Positions 6,108 through 26,260 of a stretch of 42,080 nt of DNA are shown here, in pieces. Position numbers and translations under genes: made by a program. A model generated the notes under the pieces. The model was not told the DNA's origin, made no database searches, and saw only the letters and a list, made by a program, of their open reading frames with translations. The DNA is from Brevundimonas vancanneytii (GTDB lineage: Bacteria; Pseudomonadota; Alphaproteobacteria; Caulobacterales; Caulobacteraceae), in contig CAMAVA010000008.1 in assembly GCA_945861515.1 (NCBI GenBank), forward strand, positions 1 through 42,080. The letters run 5' to 3'. Position 1 is the stretch's first letter, and each line of letters opens with the position of its first letter.

Positions 6108-7559
<1,452 letters not shown>

Positions 7560-7824
7560 GGCGTGAGGCGCCGCAGGCGGCGGCCTCTTTGGGTATCAGG
7601 ACGTCGGCCCTGTGGGGGCGGCGACTATGGACGTGTCGTTCGGGGGTCCAGCGGGTCGACGGCGCGGCGAGCGCGCGGAGGGGCTGGAAGGAGGCGGGAA
7701 CCCCTGATTCCCGCAAAGGAAAATCAGAAGTCGGCCTGAGGGGAACCACAGCGCGCCCGCCGCGTCAAGCTGCGGATGCGGTTGCCGGGGTTCAGGCAGG
7801 CCGGCAGGGACGGGTTCGATATGT

Positions 7825-8286
7825 CTAGCCGCCAAACTCTGTGGTGACCGCAATGACCATGACAATGGCTGCCAGGAAGGGAAGTTCATTGGTCATGCGC
7901 CAGAACTTCTCCGACCGCTGGTTCGTTCCTGCGGCCAGACGCTTGCGGCTGGCGGCCAGATACATGTGCCAGCCGGTCAGGAACAGGACGCCGGCCAGCT
8001 TTGCCAGCATCCAGGGCTCCTGAAGAAACGACCAGCCCCGGGACACACCATCGGCGGCAATCAGGCAGAGACCAAAAAACCAGGCAATGACCATGGCCGG
8101 GTTCATGATGATGGCCAGAAGCTTGGCTTCCATGGTCTGGAAGGTCTGTTCCGTTTCCGAGCCTGGGGTCGCCTTGACATGATAGGCAAACAACCTGGGC
8201 AGATAGAGCAGGCCCGCCATCCAGGCGATCACCGCCAGGATGTGGAGGCCGCGCAGAAGGTCGTACTGTTCGGCAAGCCAGGTCAT
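7825..8286 (-). CDS. hemJ: Protoporphyrinogen oxidase HemJ
   Basis: A 153-residue integral membrane protein of the HemJ (YhhN/CopD-like, formerly UPF0093) family. It oxidises protoporphyrinogen IX to protoporphyrin IX in the penultimate step of haem synthesis in many alphaproteobacteria. Visible features are four hydrophobic segments, the N-terminal LRGLHILAVIAWMAGLLYLPRLFAYH with its conserved His and Arg, and the KLAGVLFLTGWHMYL helix. The product is the substrate of the ferrochelatase encoded next upstream (hemH, 53 bp away), which supports the call strongly. It has the expected length. It is probably transcribed with hemE-hemH. Confidence 0.93.
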   Translation of the reverse strand: MTWLAEQYDLLRGLHILAVIAWMAGLLYLPRLFAYHVKATPGSETEQTFQTMEAKLLAIIMNPAMVIAWFFGLCLIAADGVSRGWSFLQEPWMLAKLAGVLFLTGWHMYLAASRKRLAAGTNQRSEKFWRMTNELPFLAAIVMVIAVTTEFGG

Positions 8287-8339
8287 CGGCGATCTGCGTC
8301 CATGCTAGCGGAAAGGTGGGGCCGAACGGCTGGGGCGGT

Positions 8340-9374
8340 TCAGGCCGCTCTAGGACATTTTTTCGAACCGGAACAGCGAAACGAGCCGTCTGAATCGGCG
8401 CCGGGTCTGGCCAACGCCCGGGCGGCGGCCTCGGCAAGGCCAGCGATGAATCCGGGATCAGTGCCGAGGGCCGGCACCCGGACATAGGCCTGGCAGCCTG
8501 CCTTGTGGGCCACTTCGCCGTATTCGATGTCCAGCTCGACCAGGGTTTCCACATGTTCGGACACGAAGGCGATCGGGGTGATGACGATGGCAAGGCCTTC
8601 AGCGGCCGCCAGACGGATCTCGTCCTCTGTATTGGGGCCGATCCATTTGAGCGGGCCCACCCGGCTCTGGTAGCTGACCTTCCAGTCCCATCCCGGTCCC
8701 AGCCGGGCGGCCACGGCCGCTGCGGTGGCCTCCACCTGTTTCTGATAGGGATCACCAGCCTTGATCACCGCTTCGGGCAGACCGTGGGCCGAAAACAGCA
8801 GCCGGGCTGGGCCGGGCCGGCCGGCGGCCGCATAAGCCGTTTCGATCAATCGCGCATGGGCCTCGACAAAGGCCTCTCCGGCTGGCCAGCAGCAGAGGGT
8901 GCGGGTCTTGCCGCCGCCGCGATAGGCGCGGTGCCAGGCTGCGACGGAGGAACCGGTCGTGGTGGTGGAAAACTGCGGGTACAGGGGCAGCAGGAGGATT
9001 TCGTCCGGAGCGAAGGCCGCCACATCCGCCGCCGTGTCGGCCGTCAGGGGATGCCAGTAGCGCATGGCGATGAAGGCCTTGACCTCATCGCCCGGCAGTT
9101 TGGCGCCGAGCGCCGCGATCAGGGCCTCAGCCTGTTTCCTGGTCTCGGGCAAGAGGGGCGAGCCTCCGCCCATCAGATCGTAGTTTCCCTGGGCGAACGG
9201 CGCCCTCCGGCGGGAAATCAGCCTGGCCAGGGGCGTGCGGAAAATTCCAGGCAGATTGATGATCGCCGGGTCATTGAACAGGTTGAACAGAAAGGGCTGG
9301 ACCGCTTCCGGACCGTCGGGTCCGCCGAGGTTGAACAGAACCACAGCGATCCGGCGCGGGTGGGCGGTGCTCAT
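8340..9374 (-). CDS. hemH: Ferrochelatase
   Basis: Inserts Fe2+ into protoporphyrin IX, the last step of protohaem synthesis; 344 residues. Motifs are the N-terminal VLFNLGGPD, FLFNLFNDPAII, the catalytic His in LLFSAHGLPE, the SYQSRVGPLKWIGP stretch, and FVSEHVETLVELDIEY with the second conserved acidic site. The C-terminus ends in a Cys-containing tail (CSGSKKC). Ferrochelatases of some proteobacteria carry Cys residues that bind a [2Fe-2S] cluster, but whether this tail does is only a guess. The start ATG overlaps the hemE stop by four bases (ATGA), so the two are translationally coupled. Confidence 0.97.
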   Translation of the reverse strand: MSTAHPRRIAVVLFNLGGPDGPEAVQPFLFNLFNDPAIINLPGIFRTPLARLISRRRAPFAQGNYDLMGGGSPLLPETRKQAEALIAALGAKLPGDEVKAFIAMRYWHPLTADTAADVAAFAPDEILLLPLYPQFSTTTTGSSVAAWHRAYRGGGKTRTLCCWPAGEAFVEAHARLIETAYAAAGRPGPARLLFSAHGLPEAVIKAGDPYQKQVEATAAAVAARLGPGWDWKVSYQSRVGPLKWIGPNTEDEIRLAAAEGLAIVITPIAFVSEHVETLVELDIEYGEVAHKAGCQAYVRVPALGTDPGFIAGLAEAAARALARPGADSDGSFRCSGSKKCPRAA

Positions 9375-10399
9375 CGTCCAGTCACTTGCCTCAGGACCTG
9401 TTCAACATGGCTGATCGGGGTGTCAGGCAGGATCCCGTGCCCGAGATTGAAGATGTAGCGCCCGCCACCCCATTGGGCGAGCAATTCGTCCACCCGGCGT
9501 TCGAGGGCCGGCCCGCCCGCGCGCAGCAGCAGCGGATCGAGGGCGCCCTGGATGGCATGGGTCTTCTGAAGCCGCTGTCCCAGGGCCGCCGGCGCGGCTG
9601 TATCCAGGGCGATGGCTGAGACATCGACCTGGTCCGCATAGCGTTCGGCAAGGGCCGCCGCGCCGCGCGGAAAGCCGATGACCGGAGCGGTCACACCGAG
9701 ATCCTTCAGGCGTTGGACGATCATCCTGTGGGGACTGATGACCAGTCTCTCGAACAGGTCTTCCGGCAGGCCCTCGGCCCAGCTTTCAAAAAGCTTCAGG
9801 ACCTCGGCCCCCGCCTCTGCCTGCATGGCCAGGTAGCGGGCGGTGCTTTCCGAGAGGATGTTCATCAGCCGGTCCATCTCGTCCGGCCGTTCATAAGCGA
9901 AGGTCCGGGCGCGGGAACGGTCCGAGGAAGCGCCCTCGATCATGTAGCTGCCGACGGTCCAGGGGGCGCCGGCAAAGCCGATCAGTGTCTTGTCCGGCGC
10001 AAGCTGGGCACGCACCAGCGACAGGGTCCGGCCGATGCTGGAGAGTCTTTCCGTTGAGGCGTCGATCTCACCCGCCAGGCTGTCCATGGACGGGAGATCG
10101 CCCAGTCTCGGTCCTTCACCCGCCTCGAACCAGACCTTCTGGCCGAGGGCCCCCGGGATCAGCAGGATATCGGCAAAGACAATCGCCGCATCAAACGGAA
10201 AGCGGCGCAACGGCTGCAGGGTGGCCTCGGCCGCCATCTCGCTGTCATGACAGAAGGCGATAAAGTCCGGGGCCCGGGCTCTCAGTTCGCGATACTCGGG
10301 CAGATAGCGTCCGGCCTGGCGCATGAACCATACCGGCGGGCGATCGAGGGTTTCGCCAGCGAGAACGCGGAGGAGGGGAGCGGCAACAGTCTGGGTCAT
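9371..10399 (-). CDS. hemE: Uroporphyrinogen decarboxylase
   Basis: Decarboxylates uroporphyrinogen III to coproporphyrinogen III in the cytosol; 342 residues. Signatures are RPPVWFMRQAGRYLPEYR near the N-terminus (substrate-binding Arg and Asp region), IVFADILLIP, GFAGAPWTVGSYMIEG, LFESWAEGLPEDLFERLV, and the C-terminal NLGHGILPDTP. It is the first gene left of the origin-like region and is transcribed away from it, exactly as hemE flanks Cori in Caulobacter crescentus. An exact CtrA-type site lies 51 bp upstream of the ATG. Genes hemE, hemH and hemJ follow each other here, so three late haem steps are clustered at the origin. Confidence 0.98.
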   Translation of the reverse strand: MTQTVAAPLLRVLAGETLDRPPVWFMRQAGRYLPEYRELRARAPDFIAFCHDSEMAAEATLQPLRRFPFDAAIVFADILLIPGALGQKVWFEAGEGPRLGDLPSMDSLAGEIDASTERLSSIGRTLSLVRAQLAPDKTLIGFAGAPWTVGSYMIEGASSDRSRARTFAYERPDEMDRLMNILSESTARYLAMQAEAGAEVLKLFESWAEGLPEDLFERLVISPHRMIVQRLKDLGVTAPVIGFPRGAAALAERYADQVDVSAIALDTAAPAALGQRLQKTHAIQGALDPLLLRAGGPALERRVDELLAQWGGGRYIFNLGHGILPDTPISHVEQVLRQVTGR

Positions 10400-10444
10400 G
10401 CCGCCTTCTGTCGTTCCCCGGGCTTTCAGGCAAGACCCCTCTTA

Positions 10445-10449
10445 GAGTC
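10445..10449. promoter_or_regulatory. GANTC (CcrM methylation) site in the origin
   Basis: GAGTC directly abuts the left CtrA site. CcrM methylates GANTC late in the Caulobacter cell cycle, and such sites near promoters and the origin report passage of the replication fork. A single 5-mer is weak evidence alone; its position against a CtrA site gives it weight. Confidence 0.5.
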
Positions 10450-10464
10450 TTAATAAGAGATTAA
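10450..10464. promoter_or_regulatory. CtrA-binding site, left end of the origin
   Basis: Exact match to the CtrA consensus TTAA-N7-TTAA (ttaa-taagaga-ttaa). It sits 51 bp upstream of the hemE ATG, so it could act on both origin silencing and the hemE promoter. The exact spacing makes chance unlikely in this GC-rich sequence. Confidence 0.82.
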
Positions 10465-10547
10465 GTTTGAAGGGTAGTAGGCAGTAGGCCACTGTCAGGC
10501 GGGGATGATCGCCGTTTGGGCGGGGCCCTGCGCAGGATCGACGCGGT

Positions 10548-10568
10548 TTTTTCACCGTTCGATCCACA
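10548..10568 (+). promoter_or_regulatory. Paired DnaA-box-like 9-mers
   Basis: Two neighbouring candidates. The 9-mer at 10548-10556 (tttttcacc) matches TTWTNCACA at eight of nine positions. The one at 10560-10568 (cgatccaca) matches the Caulobacter G-box TGATCCACA at eight of nine. They are 12 bp apart start to start and adjoin a T-run that could help unwinding. The assignment rests on sequence match and location only. Confidence 0.6.
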
Positions 10569-10693
10569 GCGGACACGGTCTTGCGCAGGCTGTGAGCAGC
10601 AGGATAACCTTCTGAATAGGATAAGAAAAACCAGGAGTGGTCCATGGGAAGACGCAGGGGATGTCGGGTATGGCTGCCAGTTCTGGAGGAAGT

Positions 10694-10698
10694 GAGTC
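10694..10698. promoter_or_regulatory. Second GANTC site in the origin
   Basis: GAGTC in the middle of the hemE-ppsR region (within gtgagtcacc). It is a candidate CcrM methylation site, with the same meaning and the same limits as the one at 10445. Confidence 0.45.
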
Positions 10699-10808
10699 AC
10701 CAGGAAGTTCTGCCGCGGTCGGAGCTGTTGATGTTTGCCAGGCAAAGAGGGTTCTTGTCCCGGGTGGGCCTGGCGGGGGCCAATCTGCGGGGGAGCGATG
10801 TGTACCGG

Positions 10809-10823
10809 TTAACGAAGTGTTAA
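10809..10823. promoter_or_regulatory. CtrA-binding site, right end of the origin
   Basis: Exact TTAA-N7-TTAA (ttaa-cgaagtg-ttaa), ending 54 bp before the ppsR ATG and 4 bp before a DnaA-box-like 9-mer. Close CtrA/DnaA placement is how the two proteins compete at C. crescentus Cori. It could also control the ppsR promoter. Confidence 0.83.
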
Positions 10824-10827
10824 CGGG

Positions 10828-10836
10828 CCATCCACA
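10828..10836 (+). promoter_or_regulatory. DnaA-box-like 9-mer beside the CtrA site
   Basis: The 9-mer ccatccaca keeps the ATCCACA core of the DnaA box and differs at its first two positions. It lies 4 bp from the right CtrA site, so occupancy by CtrA and DnaA may be mutually exclusive. Confidence 0.5.
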
Positions 10837-10877
10837 GACTGGCAGGGACCAGAGGCGCGCACTAAAGGGATTGTTTC

Positions 10878-11726
10878 ATGACCACGCCGCCGCGGATCGC
10901 CACCTATTTCCATGTTCACCTGGTCTCGGACTCGACCGGTGAAACCCTGAACGCCATGGCCCGCGCCGTCTGCGCCCGGTTCACCGACACCCTGCCGATC
11001 GAACATATCTATGCCCTGGTCCGGTCGCCCAGGCAGATGGAACGGGCCCTGGACGAGATTGCAGCGGCGCCGGGAATCGTCATGCACACCATCGCCGAGC
11101 GGGACCTGAGGGCCGCCCTGGAGGAGGGATGCAGGGTCCTGGAAATGCCCTGTATTGCGCCGCTGGATCCGGTGATGGCCTCGATGAGCCGCTATCTTGG
11201 CGTGGCCATCTCGGCCCGGGTCGGGGCCCAGCATGCCCTGGACAACGACTATTTTGACCGGATGGAAGCCCTCAACTACGCCATCGGTCATGATGACGGT
11301 CAGGGCGGCCAGGACCTGTCCCTGGCCGATGTGGTGCTGGTGGGGGTGTCGCGAACCTCGAAAACCCCGACCTGCATCTATCTGGCGCACAGGGGCATAA
11401 GGGCGGCCAATGTTCCCCTGGTTCCCCATATGCCAGCACCGGAGCAGCTTCTGGGCCTGAAGAAGACACTGATCGTAGGGCTCATCACCTCGCCTGACCG
11501 GCTGGTCCAGATCCGGCGCAACCGGCTGCTCTCCCTGAAGGAAGACCGGGGGTCCGACTATGCCGATATCGATCAGGTCCGACAGGAGATCATCCATGCC
11601 CGGCGGCTCTTCGAGCGTCATGGCTGGCCGGTCATTGATGTGACCCGGCGGTCGGTCGAGGAGACGGCCGCGGGCATCATCAACCTGCTGAACGGCGGAC
11701 ACGCCCAGATCGAGGTCCTGTCATGA
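10878..11726 (+). CDS. ppsR: Pyruvate,water/phosphate dikinase regulatory protein (DUF299)
   Basis: Bifunctional kinase/phosphorylase that switches PEP synthase or pyruvate phosphate dikinase off and on by phosphorylating a Thr beside its catalytic His; 282 residues. Family marks are the N-terminal HLVSDSTGETL, the P-loop GVSRTSKTPTCIYLA near residue 157, and the conserved C-terminal DVTRRSVEETAAGI. It corresponds to 'RP001', the first gene right of the origin in C. crescentus. The ATG at 10878 follows AAGGGA. It overlaps maf by four bases and heads an operon with maf, aroE, coaE and dnaQ. Which dikinase it controls cannot be told from this window. Confidence 0.95.
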   Translation: MTTPPRIATYFHVHLVSDSTGETLNAMARAVCARFTDTLPIEHIYALVRSPRQMERALDEIAAAPGIVMHTIAERDLRAALEEGCRVLEMPCIAPLDPVMASMSRYLGVAISARVGAQHALDNDYFDRMEALNYAIGHDDGQGGQDLSLADVVLVGVSRTSKTPTCIYLAHRGIRAANVPLVPHMPAPEQLLGLKKTLIVGLITSPDRLVQIRRNRLLSLKEDRGSDYADIDQVRQEIIHARRLFERHGWPVIDVTRRSVEETAAGIINLLNGGHAQIEVLS

Positions 11727-20248: not shown

Positions 20249-20500
20249 ATGAAGGTAACCATCGAGATTGACTGCTCCGCCGTCGAGGCCCGGGCCTTTC
20301 TGGGGCTTCCGGATGTGACGACGCTGAATGACCATATGGTGGCCGAGATGCAGCGCCGGATGGACGCAAACATGGCCGCCCTCGCGCCCGAGGAGCTGAT
20401 GAAGAACTGGATGGCGCTGGGCATGGGCGCCCAGGATCAGTTCCGCAAATTGATGACGGCGGCGGCCAGCTCGGCCATGGGCGGCGCCAAGACCAAATGA
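20249..20500 (+). CDS. Small DUF6489-type protein upstream of mnmE
   Basis: An 83-residue protein starting [23 protein letters not shown], a form I associate with the DUF6489 family found beside mnmE or similar genes in alphaproteobacteria. It appears to have a short N-terminal beta strand, then helices rich in Met and Ala ([30 protein letters not shown]). It has no signal peptide and no cysteine cluster apart from one Cys. The ATG at 20249 is taken over an upstream GTG because the conserved part begins there. Its stop overlaps the mnmE start by four bases, so it is translated with mnmE. The function is unknown. Confidence 0.75.
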
Positions 20501-21834
20501 ACGAGACGATCTTTGCCCTGGCCACTGCGCCCGGTCGGGCCGCGGTGGCCGTGGTGCGGCTGTCGGGTCCGGGCGTCGGCGAGGCGCTGGTCGGACTCAC
20601 GGGTCGGCGGCTGCCGACGGCGCGACGGGCCAGCCTGCGTCGTCTGAAGGACCAGCAGGGCGAGGTGCTGGACGAGGCCCTGGTCATCTGGACCCCCGGC
20701 CCTGGCAGCTACACCGGTGAAGACGCTGCGGAGCTGCATCTTCACGGCGGCGTGGCCATTGTGGAGTTGGTGTTTCAGGCCCTGTCGGATCGTGGCCTGA
20801 GGCTGGCTGAGCCCGGAGAGTTCACCCGGCGCGCTTTCGAGAACGGCCGGCTGGACCTGGCCCAGGCCGAGGCCGTCGCCGATATGGTCGATGCGGAGAC
20901 CCTGGCCCAGGCGCGGCAGGCCGTGGGTCAACTGGGCGGCGCCCTGTCGGTCCGCTACGAGGCCTGGCGAGCGGATCTGATCCAGGGCCTGGCCATGCTG
21001 GAAGCGGCGGTGGATTTTCCCGATGAGGAGCTGCCGGCGGATGTCGCCGGCCGCGCCCGGCCTGTTCTCGAACGGCTGGAACAGGAAATCACAGCGGCTC
21101 TGGCCGACGGGCAGAGGGGGCAACGGGTGCGGGAGGGGTTCCGCATTGCCCTGGTCGGGGCGCCCAATGCCGGCAAGAGCTCACTTCTGAACCGACTGGC
21201 GGGGCGCGACGCTGCCATTGTCACGGCAACCCCGGGAACGACCCGGGACGTCATCGAGGTTCCGCTGGTTCTGGAAGGCTATCGCGTCCTGATGGCGGAT
21301 ACGGCGGGCCTGCGTGACTCCGACGACCCTATAGAGATCGAGGGGGTCCTCCGGGCCAGGGCCTGGGCCCGATCTGCCGATCTTCGGGTCTGGGTGGTGG
21401 ATGGTTCCGTCTGGACTGGAAGCTGGCGGGAAGCCGCTGATCTGGCGGGTCCCGGTGATCTGATGGTCATCAACAAGGTCGATCTGCCGCCTGGCGGCGA
21501 CGCTGCAGCGGCTGCCTCTGAATGGGGGGCCGTGCAGCGGATCAGCCTGCAGACCGGCGAGGGCGTCGAGGCTCTGCGCAAGGGTCTGACGGAGCGTGTG
21601 ATTGCCGGCCTGTCCGGAGGCGAGTTTCCCCTGGCGACGCGGTTACGTCACGCCGAGAGTCTGGCTGAAGCGCGGAGCAGGCTGGTGGAAGCGCTGGCGG
21701 ATCTGGAACCGGCAGTGGAGCTGGCTGCCGAGAATGTCAGGTTGGCCAGCCGGGCCCTGGCGCGGGTGACGGGGCGGATTGGCGCAGAGGACATACTGGA
21801 TGTGGTGTTCTCGAGCTTCTGCATCGGCAAATGA
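20497..21834 (+). CDS. mnmE: tRNA modification GTPase MnmE
   Basis: With MnmG it forms 5-carboxymethylaminomethyluridine at tRNA wobble U34; 445 residues. The N-terminal domain binds the formyl-folate donor ([21 protein letters not shown]). A helical domain follows, interrupted by a G domain at about residues 215-370 with G1 [10 protein letters not shown]2 GTTRD, G3 DTAGL and G4 NKVD. The invariant C-terminal CIGK is present, with the catalytic Cys. Two parS sites follow the stop: the first starts 3 bp after it. Partner mnmG is the next gene. Confidence 0.97.
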
Positions 21835-21836
21835 TG

Positions 21837-21852
21837 TGTTTCACGTGAAACA
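21837..21852. promoter_or_regulatory. parS: parS site 1
   Basis: Perfect 16-bp palindrome TGTTTCACGTGAAACA, extended to 18 bp by flanking G/C. This is the canonical chromosomal parS bound by ParB. It starts 3 bp after the mnmE stop and is 4.5 kb from parB. It is one of a pair 49 bp apart. Confidence 0.97.
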
Positions 21853-21885
21853 CCTCCCTCTGGCGTATTGAGGATCGGCCAGGGC

Positions 21886-21901
21886 TGTTTCACGTGAAAC
21901 A
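21886..21901. promoter_or_regulatory. parS: parS site 2
   Basis: Second perfect TGTTTCACGTGAAACA in the mnmE-mnmG gap, 49 bp centre to centre from the first. The ATG inside or after it (21894) opens in frame with mnmG but is not the likely start. Confidence 0.97.
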
Positions 21902-21995
21902 TTGGTGCGTCAGCAAGGCCATGGAACCGGGGGCGGGCCCTTGCTATAGGGTCTTCTCTTGCCCCCGTCCCCGGGGGCTTCTTGTTTGGCTAGCC

Positions 21996-23849
21996 ATGGC
22001 TTCCTGGGATGTCATCGTGATCGGCGGCGGGCACGCCGGCTGTGAAGCCGCAGCGGCGTCTGCACGGCTGGGCGCCCGGACCCTGCTCCTCACCCACAAG
22101 CTCGAAACCATCGGCGAGATGAGTTGCAACCCGGCCATTGGCGGTCTGGGCAAGGGCCATCTGGTCCGGGAGATCGACGCCCTGGACGGTGTGATGGGCC
22201 GGATGGCCGATCGCTCCGGGATCCAATTCCGGATGCTCAATCGCTCCAAGGGACCGGCCGTCCGGGGGCCGCGTTCACAGATTGACCGCAAGCTCTACCG
22301 GGATGCCATGCAGGCCGAGCTCGCGGCGACCCCGAACCTTACCCTTGAGGCCGAGGCGGTCGAGGATCTGATCGTCGAGGACGGCGTGGTTGTGGGCGTC
22401 GTGGGCGGGTCTGGCCGGACCTGGCGGGCTGCCGGTGTCGTCCTCACCACCGGCACCTTTCTGAAGGGCGTCATCCATCTGGGTGAGCGGCGGATTCCGG
22501 CCGGCCGGGTGGGCGATGCTCCGGCCATTGGTCTGTCGGATCGACTTTACGCCAGTGGTCTTGCCATGGGACGGCTGAAGACCGGCACCCCGGCCCGACT
22601 GGACGGGCGGACGATCGCCTGGGACAGGCTGGAGATGCAGGATGCGGACGCCGAGCCCATCCCCTTCTCGTTCCTGACGGACCGGATCGAGGTCCCGCAG
22701 ATCCGGTGCGGCATCACCTGGACCACGGCGGAAACCCACAGGATCATTGCCGAGCGGCTGACGGAGTCGGCGGTCTATGGCGGTCGGGCCACCGGGAACG
22801 GCCCGCGCTACTGTCCCTCCATCGAGGACAAGGTTGTGCGATTTGCCGACAAGACCAGCCACCAGGTTTTTCTCGAGCCTGAGGGCCTGGATGACCATAC
22901 GGTCTATCCCAATGGGGTCTCGACCTCGGTTTCCGAAGAGACCCAGGCTCTTTTCCTGCGGACGATCCCGGGTCTGGAGTCGGTGACCATTCTGCGACCG
23001 GGCTATGCCATAGAGTATGACTATGTTGACCCCCGTGAGCTCAGCCCGGCCCTGGAGGTCAAGCGCCTGCCGGGCCTGTTCCTGGCGGGTCAGATCAACG
23101 GCACGACGGGCTATGAGGAAGCGGCGGCCCAGGGCCTGGTAGCCGGCCTCAATGCGGCGCGGCGGGCCGGAGGCTCGGAACCGGCCGGGTTCGGGCGGGA
23201 TGAAGCCTATATCGGTGTGATGATCGACGATCTCGTCACGCGGGGGGTTACCGAGCCCTATCGGATGTTCACCAGTCGAGCGGAATTCCGGTTGATCCTC
23301 CGCTCTGACAACGCCGACCAGCGGCTTACAGGTCGAGGCGAGGCCGTTGGTCTTGTCGGCCAGGGCCGGGCGGCAGTGTTTCACGTGAAACAACAGCAGC
23401 TGGCCGAGGCCCGGGCCTTTGCAGCGTCGCATAGCCTGACCCCGACGGAGGCCGTGCGACTGGGTCTTGCCGTCAAGGCCGATGGCCAGAGGCGCAACCT
23501 GACCCAGCTGCTGGCCTATCCTGACGTGACCTTGCAGAGGTTGGCCGCCGTCTGGCCAGCCATTGACGACTGGTCTGTCGTCGTTCGCGAGCAGATCGAG
23601 ATCGACGCCGCCTATAGCGGCTATCTGGATCGACAACAGGCCGATGTCGACGCCTTCCGCCGGGACGAAGACCTCAGACTTCCGACGGACCTGGACTTCT
23701 CGACCATTGGCAGCCTGTCCAACGAGGTCCGAGAAAAACTGACCCGCGTCCGACCGCAGACCCTTGGTCAAGCGGCCCGGATCGAGGGCGTGACTCCTGG
23801 CGCCATCACGGCGCTGCTGGCTCATGTCCGGCGCGCCCATGCTGCTTGA
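21996..23849 (+). CDS. mnmG: tRNA modification enzyme MnmG (GidA)
   Basis: FAD-dependent partner of MnmE in U34 modification; 617 residues from the ATG at 21996. This start places the FAD loop [12 protein letters not shown] six residues in, as in known MnmG proteins; an in-frame ATG at 21894 lies in a parS site and adds 34 unrelated residues. Further motifs are [54 protein letters not shown], and [17 protein letters not shown]. Oddly, residues 462-466 (FHVKQ) are encoded by a complete parS palindrome at 23377-23392, in a region just after the conserved [15 protein letters not shown] segment. The C-terminus overlaps rsmG by 26 bp. Confidence 0.97.
23377..23392. promoter_or_regulatory. parS: parS site 3, inside the mnmG coding sequence
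   Basis: Third perfect TGTTTCACGTGAAACA. It lies within mnmG and is read as V-FHVKQ. Because it is exact to the base within a coding gene, selection for ParB binding must act on top of protein coding. Confidence 0.97.
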
Positions 23850-24486
23850 TCCTGACCCCCAGGTCGCCGAGGCCGCCGCCTTCCAGGCCGCCATGGGCGC
23901 CACCGACGCGCAGATGCGGGATCTGGAAGTTTACCGGCTGATGCTGGAAGACTGGAACGGGCGACTCAACCTGGTTGGCCCGTCCGCCCTGGCGAGCTTC
24001 TGGCCTCGCCATGCCCTGGACAGCGCCCAGCTGCTTCGCCTGGCGCCGGAAGCCCTTCGCTGGGCCGATCTCGGAACCGGGGCCGGACTGCCGGGCCTGG
24101 TCCTGGCGATCCTCTTGAAGGACCGCCCCGGCGCCAAGATCCATCTGGTTGAAAGCCTGGCCAAGCGGTGTCGCTTCCTGGAGGCGGTTGTCGCGGACCT
24201 TGAGCTGCCGGCCGAGGTCATCAACGGCCGGGCTGAAACGGCCCGCCTGACAGTGGATGTGGTCACCGCCCGGGCGGTTGCCGCCCTGCCCCGGCTGCTC
24301 ACCTTCGCCCACCCCTGTCTCAAGACCGGGGCTGTCGGACTGTTTCTCAAGGGCCGGACTGCCCAGGCCGAGCTGGACGAAGCCCGGCAGGACTGGCGGC
24401 TTGACGCCGAACTCATTCAAAGCCTCAGCGACCCGGACGGCCGGATCGTGGAAATCAGGAGCGCATACCGTGTCCCACGTCGCTGA
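23824..24486 (+). CDS. rsmG: 16S rRNA (guanine-527-N7)-methyltransferase
   Basis: SAM-dependent methylation of G527 in 16S rRNA; 220 residues (GidB). The N-terminal helix pair has [18 protein letters not shown], the SAM loop is [17 protein letters not shown], followed by [16 protein letters not shown] and the [12 protein letters not shown] segment. The start ATG at 23824 lies inside the mnmG end; ATG 23839 is also possible. Its 3' end overlaps parA by 17 bp, so mnmG, rsmG and parA form a translationally linked chain, the classic gidA-gidB-parA-parB order. Confidence 0.96.
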
Positions 24487-25312
24487 GACTGCCCGACCCG
24501 CCGCCGAAGCCGGCCGTCCCATGCGGGTTCTGGCAATCGCCAACCAGAAGGGCGGGGTGGGCAAGACTACTACTGCCATCAATCTCGGCACGGCCCTGGC
24601 GGCGGTTGGCGAGTCGGTTCTGCTGATCGACAGCGACCCGCAGGGCAACGCCTCCACCGGCCTTGGCGTCCCGCGCCAGAACCGCAAGGTTACCATGTAT
24701 GACGTCTTTGTCGGGGAAAAGACCCTGGCTGAGGCGGCCATCCCCACCAGCCTTCCCGGGCTGGACCTGGCTGCCTCCGACGCAGACCTTTCCGGACTTG
24801 AGCTGGAACTGTCCCAGAGCCAGCGGCGGTCGTATCGTTTGAGGGATGCCCTGGCGACCCTGCGGGACACCGGTCGCTACAGCTATGTCCTGATCGACTG
24901 TCCGCCCTCCCTCAATCTGCTGACCGTCAATGCCATGACGGCGGCCGACGCCGTCTTCGTCCCCCTGCAGTGCGAGTTCTTTGCCCTGGAAGGCCTGACC
25001 CAGCTGCTGCGGACCGTTGAAATGGTGAAGGGCAGTCTCAATCCGGCCCTGGAAATCCAGGGCGTCGTCCTGACCATGTTCGACCGCCGCAACAGCCTGT
25101 CGGAACAGGTGTCGCGCGATGTCCGCAGCCATTTCGGGGAACTGGTCTATGAGACGGTGATCCCCCGCAACGTGCGCATTTCAGAGGCTCCGTCCTTCGG
25201 CAAGCCGGTCCTGATCTATGACCTGAAATGCGCTGGCTCCCAGGCCTATCTCAAGCTGGCCCGGGAGGTGGTCGCCCGGGAACGGCGACGCCTTCAGGAC
25301 ACGGCGGCCTGA
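24470..25312 (+). CDS. parA: Chromosome partitioning ATPase ParA
   Basis: Deviant Walker A ATPase that moves ParB/parS complexes poleward along a nucleoid-bound gradient; 280 residues from the GTG at 24470. That GTG has AGGAG 8 bp upstream, whereas the ATG at 24521 has no Shine-Dalgarno, so a 17-residue N-terminal extension (start read as Met, then [16 protein letters not shown]) is likely. Signature Lys is in KGGVGKTTTAINLG; Walker A' is LLIDSDPQGNAS; Walker B is YVLIDCPPSLNLLTVNAM; DNA-binding and C-terminal segments are VIPRNVRISEAPSFGKPV and YDLKCAGSQAYLKLAREV. parB follows after 60 bp. Confidence 0.96.
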   Translation: MSHVAETARPAAEAGRPMRVLAIANQKGGVGKTTTAINLGTALAAVGESVLLIDSDPQGNASTGLGVPRQNRKVTMYDVFVGEKTLAEAAIPTSLPGLDLAASDADLSGLELELSQSQRRSYRLRDALATLRDTGRYSYVLIDCPPSLNLLTVNAMTAADAVFVPLQCEFFALEGLTQLLRTVEMVKGSLNPALEIQGVVLTMFDRRNSLSEQVSRDVRSHFGELVYETVIPRNVRISEAPSFGKPVLIYDLKCAGSQAYLKLAREVVARERRRLQDTAA

Positions 25313-25372
25313 TCCCGCCCGTCGCCGTCAAACACCGAACAACACAAGTCACGACAACGGAAAGTACAGACT

Positions 25373-26260
25373 ATGGCTGAAGGACGCAGGGGTCTTGGAC
25401 GGGGCCTGTCGGCGCTGCTGGGCGAGACCGACGTGGTCGAAAACGCCGGGTCCGCCACGGCGCCGGAGGCCGGCATCCGCGAGATCCCCATCGAGCTGAT
25501 CCGGGCCAACCCGCACCAGCCGAGACGCAGCTTTGACCGGGCCGAGATCGACGCCCTGGCCGCCAGCCTCAAGGAAAAGGGCGTTCTGCAGCCCATTCTC
25601 GTCAGACCCTTGGCCGAGACCCCCGGGGAATACCAGATCGTCGCGGGCGAGCGCCGCTGGCGCGCCGCCCAGGTGGCCGCCCTGCGGACCCTGCCGGCCA
25701 TTGTCCGCAGTCTGGACGACCAGCAGGTGCTCGAAATCGGAATCATCGAGAATGTGCAACGGACCGATCTCAACCCCTATGAAGAGGCGCTGGCCTACCG
25801 CACCCTGATTGACAGTTTCGGTCATACCCAGGAGGCCGTGGCCGAGGCGGTTTCCAAGAGCCGACCGCATGTAGCCAATGCCCTGCGCCTTCTGACCCTG
25901 CCGCAAGCCATCCTGACCATGCTGGTGGAAGGGAGCCTGACCGCCGGTCACGCCCGCACCCTGATCGGATCGGAGAAAGCCGTAGACCTGGCCCGGCAGG
26001 TGATCCGGGATGGCCTCAGCGTGCGGCAGACCGAGGCCCTGGTCCGGCAGAAGCCGCCTACGGGAAAGGCCAGGACCGGCGACAGGACGCCCGCCGGCCC
26101 CAGGGACCATGACACCAGTGCGCTGGAATCCGACCTGTCTGAACTCCTTGGCGTGGCGGTGACGATTTCGGACCAGGGCGGCGCTGGGGAAATCCGGTTG
26201 CGCTACGACAGCCTGGAGCAGCTGGACGATCTTTGCCGGCGACTGACCCGGGCCGGCTGA
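25373..26260 (+). CDS. parB: Chromosome partitioning protein ParB
   Basis: CTP-dependent DNA clamp that loads at parS and spreads; 295 residues. The N-terminal GRRGLGRGLSALLGE contains the ParA-activating basic motif. The CTP-binding region has IRANPHQPRR, then YQIVAGERRWRAAQVA (box with GERRWRA), and ENVQRTDLNPYEEA. The HTH that reads parS is TQEAVAEAVSKSRPHVANALRLL. A C-terminal dimerisation helix follows a Thr/Gly/Pro-rich linker. GGAAAG lies about 10 bp before the ATG. Three target parS sites lie in the upstream gene cluster. The gene converges with a creatininase-family gene. Confidence 0.97.
   Translation: MAEGRRGLGRGLSALLGETDVVENAGSATAPEAGIREIPIELIRANPHQPRRSFDRAEIDALAASLKEKGVLQPILVRPLAETPGEYQIVAGERRWRAAQVAALRTLPAIVRSLDDQQVLEIGIIENVQRTDLNPYEEALAYRTLIDSFGHTQEAVAEAVSKSRPHVANALRLLTLPQAILTMLVEGSLTAGHARTLIGSEKAVDLARQVIRDGLSVRQTEALVRQKPPTGKARTGDRTPAGPRDHDTSALESDLSELLGVAVTISDQGGAGEIRLRYDSLEQLDDLCRRLTRAG

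Follow-up and report, generated by a model that had tools for sequence, protein, structure and literature searches.

The hemE-ppsR locus

The window, that is, the whole 42,080-nucleotide stretch of Brevundimonas vancanneytii DNA analysed here, belongs to a draft genome of 3,422,927 bases in 276 contigs. It contains a 478 bp intergenic gap around which hemE (minus strand) and ppsR (plus strand) are divergently arranged, and which has a GC content of 0.577 versus 0.668 for the 42-kb window. The features of the locus are listed below, with the strand where one applies.

9371..10399, minus strand: hemE, uroporphyrinogen decarboxylase, left border (NCBIfam TIGR01464, 372.7 bits against a cut-off of 302.95)
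10400..10877: intergenic hemE-ppsR gap, 478 bp, candidate Cori-type chromosome origin (from its borders, sites and kin)
start 10415: second W-box-like TCCCCG, one mismatch to TCCCCA, at the last base
10440..10479: AT-rich stretch, GC 0.30, candidate unwinding element (GC scan of 40-mers)
10445..10449: GANTC abutting the left CtrA site, at chance number
10450..10464: predicted left CtrA site TTAATAAGAGATTAA, exact TTAA-N7-TTAA, with an aligned site in relatives
10500..10505, minus strand: weak W-box-like CGGGGA (TCCCCG on the other strand, one mismatch to TCCCCA)
10560..10568, plus strand: left DnaA-like box CGATCCACA, two mismatches from TTATCCACA
10694..10698: second GANTC, at chance number
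10809..10823: predicted right CtrA site TTAACGAAGTGTTAA, exact TTAA-N7-TTAA, kept in relatives
10828..10836, plus strand: right DnaA-like box CCATCCACA, two mismatches from TTATCCACA
10878..11726, plus strand: ppsR (DUF299/COG1806), PEP synthase regulator, right border (NCBIfam NF003742, 331 bits against a cut-off of 225)
21837..21852: parS, perfect (motif search)
21886..21901: parS, perfect (motif search)
23377..23392: parS, perfect, within gidA/mnmG (motif search)

The neighbouring genes have as their best NCBIfam matches hemH, hemJ and rho to one side and maf, aroE, coaE, dnaQ and secB to the other, the matches of hemJ, maf and aroE falling below the curated cut-offs; mnmE, gidA, gidB, parA and parB (Pfam) lie further right on the secB side. 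The three perfect parS sites (21837, 21886 and 23377) lie near parAB, and the genome has no others even when two mismatches are allowed. This cluster is 11-13 kb from the gap, a distance that we counted as agreeing with parS/parAB lying within some 10 kb of an origin. The lowest-GC 40-mer of the whole window, 10440-10479, falls over the left CtrA site. An Rfam scan of 10200-11100 gave no match at E up to 1, the gap interior matched only itself when searched against its own genome, and a simple promoter scan of 10380-10900 found no sigma-70-like site; a scan of the same interval found one terminator-like site, versus 0.5 in shuffled sequences.

The genome encodes CtrA, with 91% identity to an approximate C. 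crescentus CtrA sequence, as well as DnaA, GcrA and a protein with a RAMA domain, a domain carried by CcrM. The single dnaA match is on another contig (G000:C3:46189-46671), outside the window.

The window genome and the complete relative G018 both have parS to the ppsR side of the gap, unlike C. crescentus, where we take it to lie on the hemE side of Cori. It is on the hemE side in 22 other genomes, the 24 placed being those that could be placed among the matches listed for 37 searched genomes (in others parS was, for example, absent or on another contig). The segments concerned are 20497-26260 versus 6108-10399 in the window and G018:C1:74980-86984. The switch of side in these two genomes suggests an inversion around the origin.

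CtrA sites and accompanying motifs

The two exact TTAA-N7-TTAA sites that the preliminary description reported in the gap are present at 10450-10464 and 10809-10823. Its distances to the flanking genes were nearly right: 54 bp separate the right site from the ppsR start codon, as stated, and 50 bp, one fewer than the 51 given, separate the left site from that of hemE. Only 10 exact sites occur in the 3,422,927-base draft genome, so that the gap, 0.014% of the sequence, holds a fifth of them; with ten sites placed at random, about 0.009 pairs at such closeness would be expected. Under a looser published CtrA rule, two sites are seen versus 0.016 expected per gap (p 0.001; 2000 first-order Markov simulations of the gap). 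CtrA sites therefore exceed chance here, as in a Cori-type origin. No further CtrA site was found in the gap at one mismatch, and none between the outer pair at up to two mismatches.

DnaA-box-like 9-mers and two GANTC sites are also there, as had been described, yet in the same simulations their numbers do not exceed chance (two DnaA-like boxes versus 0.78 expected, p 0.19; two GANTC versus 1.77 expected, p 0.54). The right DnaA-like box is informative because it is conserved beside the right CtrA site, and not by number: in the window CCATCCACA begins 5 bp past that site, and TCCACA occurs within 8 nt after it in 52 of the 55 gaps having the site. The left box, CGATCCACA, corresponds in offset to an exact G-box, TGATCCACA, in the sister gap L039; the window gap, whose boxes read CGATCCACA and CCATCCACA, has no exact G-box. 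Exact W-boxes (TCCCCA) are likewise absent from the window gap, and among 91 gaps compared only it and L040 have none. The G-box and W-box spellings used are those in the available text of PMC4285127. When the IHF consensus was sought at 7 of 8 positions, the window gave no match outside the left CtrA site; the sole match, being inside that site, was set aside as uninformative.

Distribution of the CtrA sites in related gaps

In order to compare the gap with its relatives, 110 related loci were collected. The genes hemE and ppsR are divergent in 108 of them; the other two (L018 and L095) are cut off by a contig end immediately upstream of ppsR. After 17 identical gaps were dropped, 91 were compared. 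Motif and CtrA counts and the tree scoring of position classes cover all 91; the gap alignment (20 of 91), the CtrA site scan (40 of 91), the identity comparison (22 pairs) and the interior alignment scores (27 pairs) cover hand-picked subsets. The tree is a quick single-gene ppsR tree, on which CtrA sites were scored by position at up to one mismatch and changes were counted with gain and loss taken together. The left-site class was confined to 50-95 bp from hemE.

Exact CtrA sites number none in 11 gaps, one in 23, two in 29, three in 18 and four in 10. The right site occurs in 55 of 91 gaps and requires a single change on the ppsR tree, marking one clade (support 91); together with its DnaA-like box it bears out the expectation that sites would be conserved between kin. 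The left site is found in 46 gaps (four changes), a site 118-126 bp past it in 13 (one change), a centre-right site in 32 (seven changes) and a central site in 83 (two changes). Within the 55-gap clade 45 gaps have the left site and 48 the central one, compared with 1 and 35 of the 36 gaps outside it, the central site being equated between clade and outside gaps by position only.

Among the 91 gaps, the central site is absent only from L115 and from one group of seven (support 92), made up of the window, L039, L040, L041 (Caulobacter sp. SLTY), L006 (G014), L007 (G018) and L034 (G036). Both outer sites are exact in all seven. Three members (the window, its sister L039, and L034) have no CtrA site beyond this outer pair; in the other four an additional one occurs at a new position, exact in two and with one mismatch in two. 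The view of the gap as a reduced form is right, since the central site of 83 of 91 gaps is missing in the window's group. Its distribution suggests that the site lost may be one that is commoner among the gaps than the two still present. A single deletion accounting for both the missing central site and the shorter spacing described below was considered and rejected: the alignment gap (23 nt) lies near the right site, not the central one.

Two further observations concern the relatives. The L034 gap (831 bp) is some 330-350 bp longer than those of the window, G014 and G018, and the extra length lies between the right CtrA site and ppsR. Also, exact CtrA sites are lacking throughout a clade of nine gaps (L015, L024, L025, L026, L028, L053, L056, L062 and L064, from records titled C. 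hibisci, C. zeae, C. endophyticus and others): the central and right sites are present at one mismatch, and every left site has the form TTAA-N11-TTAG.

Spacing of the outer sites and conservation of the interior

The distance from left to right CtrA site is 357-362 bp (s.d. 1.5) in the seven-gap group and 378-387 bp (s.d. 3.0) in the 38 other gaps with both outer sites. Outside the pair, distances vary more. Over the 45 gaps, the left site is 50-93 bp from hemE (s.d. 8.6 in the group, 9.3 in the others) and the right site 68-431 bp from a fixed ppsR codon (s.d. 115 and 8.7). As the gaps are related by descent, neither the inner nor the outer distances are independent values. The symmetric placing of the two sites that had been proposed is not borne out by these ranges, and the 50/54 bp symmetry of the window is probably chance, because the outer distances vary more than the inner one. 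It is the inner, site-to-site distance that looks like a feature under selection. Helical phasing of this distance (resultant 0.43-0.45 over 45 gaps, uncorrected for their kinship) was also examined and was not used.

Compared with L039, the window has an identity of 0.82 in the adjoining 300 bp of hemE and 0.86 in 300 bp of ppsR, 0.93 around the left site and 0.88 around the right module, versus 0.57 in the interior. The interior alignment of this pair scores 4.3 s.d. above shuffles, compared with 12.9 and 13.6 s.d. for L032-L079 and L029-L030, pairs with about the same hemE/ppsR divergence. With the eight relatives compared, the window interior aligns weakly.

GC skew and replichore polarity

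The preliminary description predicted a switch of GC skew at the gap, and none was seen. The window has positive skew over its first 23 kb or so. In G018 the gap is at 87 kb, and all 10-kb bins read between 0 and 170 kb have negative skew, with the cumulative minimum near 160-170 kb (stretches from about -211 to 355 kb). Placing the origin by GC skew was accordingly given up; GC skew is described as insufficient in several Alphaproteobacteria in the accessible text of PMC1914354. An inversion close to the origin could leave a single skew sign of the kind seen across it in G018:C1:1-170000.

The orientation of GGGNAGGG was also followed. In sampled stretches of G018 it occurs 27 times forward and 2 times reverse at 1.70-2.32 Mb, and 7 and 27 times at 2.32-2.90 Mb. 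The polarity flips between 2,324,840 and 2,326,935, which misses the position opposite the gap (87.25 kb plus half of 4,470,728) by about 3 kb. Forward/reverse counts close to the gap are 19/22 at 0-87 kb, 62/43 at 87-560 kb and 30/47 at 4.0-4.47 Mb, leaning weakly in the expected direction. The 3-kb precision is partly luck, because in the four other complete genomes compared the flip is 67 kb (G026) or 80 kb (G003) off the opposite point or is not seen within 100 kb of it (G005); the best switch in G013, 94 kb off, falls at the border of the 200 kb examined. The window has 4 forward and 1 reverse GGGNAGGG left of the gap and 5 and 7 right of it, a lean the wrong way which, on small numbers, speaks mildly against an origin.

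Proposed function of the gap

The position of the gap, its sites, their conservation and their distribution on the tree are direct observations. Because of the gene context, the parS cluster, the AT minimum and the conserved CtrA/DnaA module, the hemE-ppsR gap is very probably the chromosome replication origin, as had been proposed, and of the Cori type with only two CtrA sites.

For C. crescentus, the exclusion of DnaA from Cori by CtrA is presented as the favoured mechanism in the text of PMC4468827 available to us. By analogy, protein binding at the gap, its unwinding element and its repression by CtrA can be pictured as follows. DnaA would load from the two DnaA-like boxes (10560 and 10828) and open the AT-rich stretch 10440-10479, in which the left CtrA site lies. 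Phosphorylated CtrA would occupy both outer sites in swarmer-type cells, covering the AT-rich stretch from the left one and, from the right one, crowding the DnaA-like box 5 bp away so that DnaA is excluded; the origin would then stay closed until CtrA is removed. A further and tentative suggestion, which we hold to be less than probable, is that the outer pair constitutes one spaced unit, in which the distance and not the interior sequence is selected and the central site is dispensable in the seven-gap group. CtrA dimers 357-362 bp apart might then cooperate, for example through a DNA loop or by fencing a DnaA array at both ends.

The gap could also be only the divergent promoter region of hemE and ppsR, under CtrA regulation, with the origin elsewhere, for example some 80 kb off at the skew minimum of G018. 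The skew that runs through the gap without a switch in the window and G018, the position of that minimum (near 160-170 kb, with the gap at 87 kb) and the wrong-way lean of GGGNAGGG in the window would all suit such an arrangement. It is nevertheless improbable: the adjoining CtrA and DnaA-like sites, the AT minimum and the parS cluster point to the gap itself, a near-constant inner length is presumably more than plain promoters need, and C. crescentus Cori was placed experimentally between the same two genes, according to the consulted portion of PMC1914354. An artefact of assembly or binning is more improbable still as the reason for the missing central site. The window genome is indeed a draft of 276 contigs and its interior aligns weakly with the eight relatives compared, but the site is absent in all seven members of the group, including the single-contig 4.47-Mb G018 (L007) and Caulobacter sp. 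SLTY (L041), and all seven keep the 357-362 bp spacing.

If the origin does lie here, its control by CtrA may still be vestigial, with DnaA and DnaA inactivation timing initiation and CtrA acting mainly on hemE or ppsR. The absence of the central site in the seven-gap group would fit, as would the report, in the text of PMC4468827 at hand, that C. crescentus in laboratory culture had only a mildly disturbed cell cycle when the affinity of all five sites for CtrA was reduced. We regard this as unlikely. An active role is more probable than a vestigial one, since all seven gaps keep exact outer sites while the interior drifts, aligning weakly even between window and sister, which suggests selection on the sites; in addition, a CtrA site in a new place, exact or one mismatch off, is present in four of the seven gaps.

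Cori is the standard example of an origin under a developmental response regulator, and a natural version with two sites, lacking the one present in most of the relatives compared, hints at which sites may be enough. The contribution of each CtrA site is thereby made testable through natural origin swaps.

Comparison with known origins

The predicted Rickettsiales origins resemble the window in their hemE border, in their CtrA, DnaA and IHF motifs and in a variable number of CtrA sites; as presented in the excerpts of PMC1914354, they are in silico predictions, from far relatives with AT-rich genomes.

C. crescentus Cori, as far as it is described in the sections of PMC4468827, PMC1914354 and PMC4285127 drawn on here, shares with the window the hemE/ppsR borders, TTAA-N7-TTAA CtrA sites, a DnaA-like box beside a CtrA site, an AT-rich stretch of about 40 bp and parS close by. 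By the same descriptions it has five CtrA sites, four of them conserved among freshwater Caulobacter species (PMC4468827), compared with two in the window, where neither the central site nor the IHF/CtrA double site was found and where exact TGATCCACA and TCCCCA are absent (two G-boxes and five W-boxes in C. crescentus). The C. vibrioides-type gap L013 (G001) and its near kin align with the window at the left and right outer sites and have the right module with its DnaA-like box. By the same scan L013 has five CtrA sites, four exact and one with one mismatch, which agrees with the preliminary description of the window gap as carrying fewer sites than the C. crescentus five, and its site-to-site distance is 380 bp versus 359 bp. 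One of its CtrA sites reads TTAACGCTCTGTTAA, containing the IHF-site letters as printed in PMC4285127, in the part available; these letters recur as in L013 in 2 of the 13 gaps with a CtrA site at that place.

The remaining 36 gaps, which fall outside the 55-gap clade and in many cases are titled Phenylobacterium (for example L060, L089 and L114), have the same gene borders and CtrA-type sites. Unlike the window, 35 of them have the central site, often with the centre-right one too, and the right outer site occurs in none and the left in one (L106, one mismatch); apart from L106, they share no outer CtrA position with the window. The series from Phenylobacterium-type gaps through Caulobacter to the window's group suggests an exchange of repressor sites within a working essential element. 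If the outer pair does act as a spaced unit, then, set beside Phenylobacterium-type gaps with a central site and no outer pair, it would mean that the repressor sites of one origin have been replaced completely, with intermediate forms still alive. Next to these relatives, the window gap is unremarkable as a place for an origin and unusual in its state.
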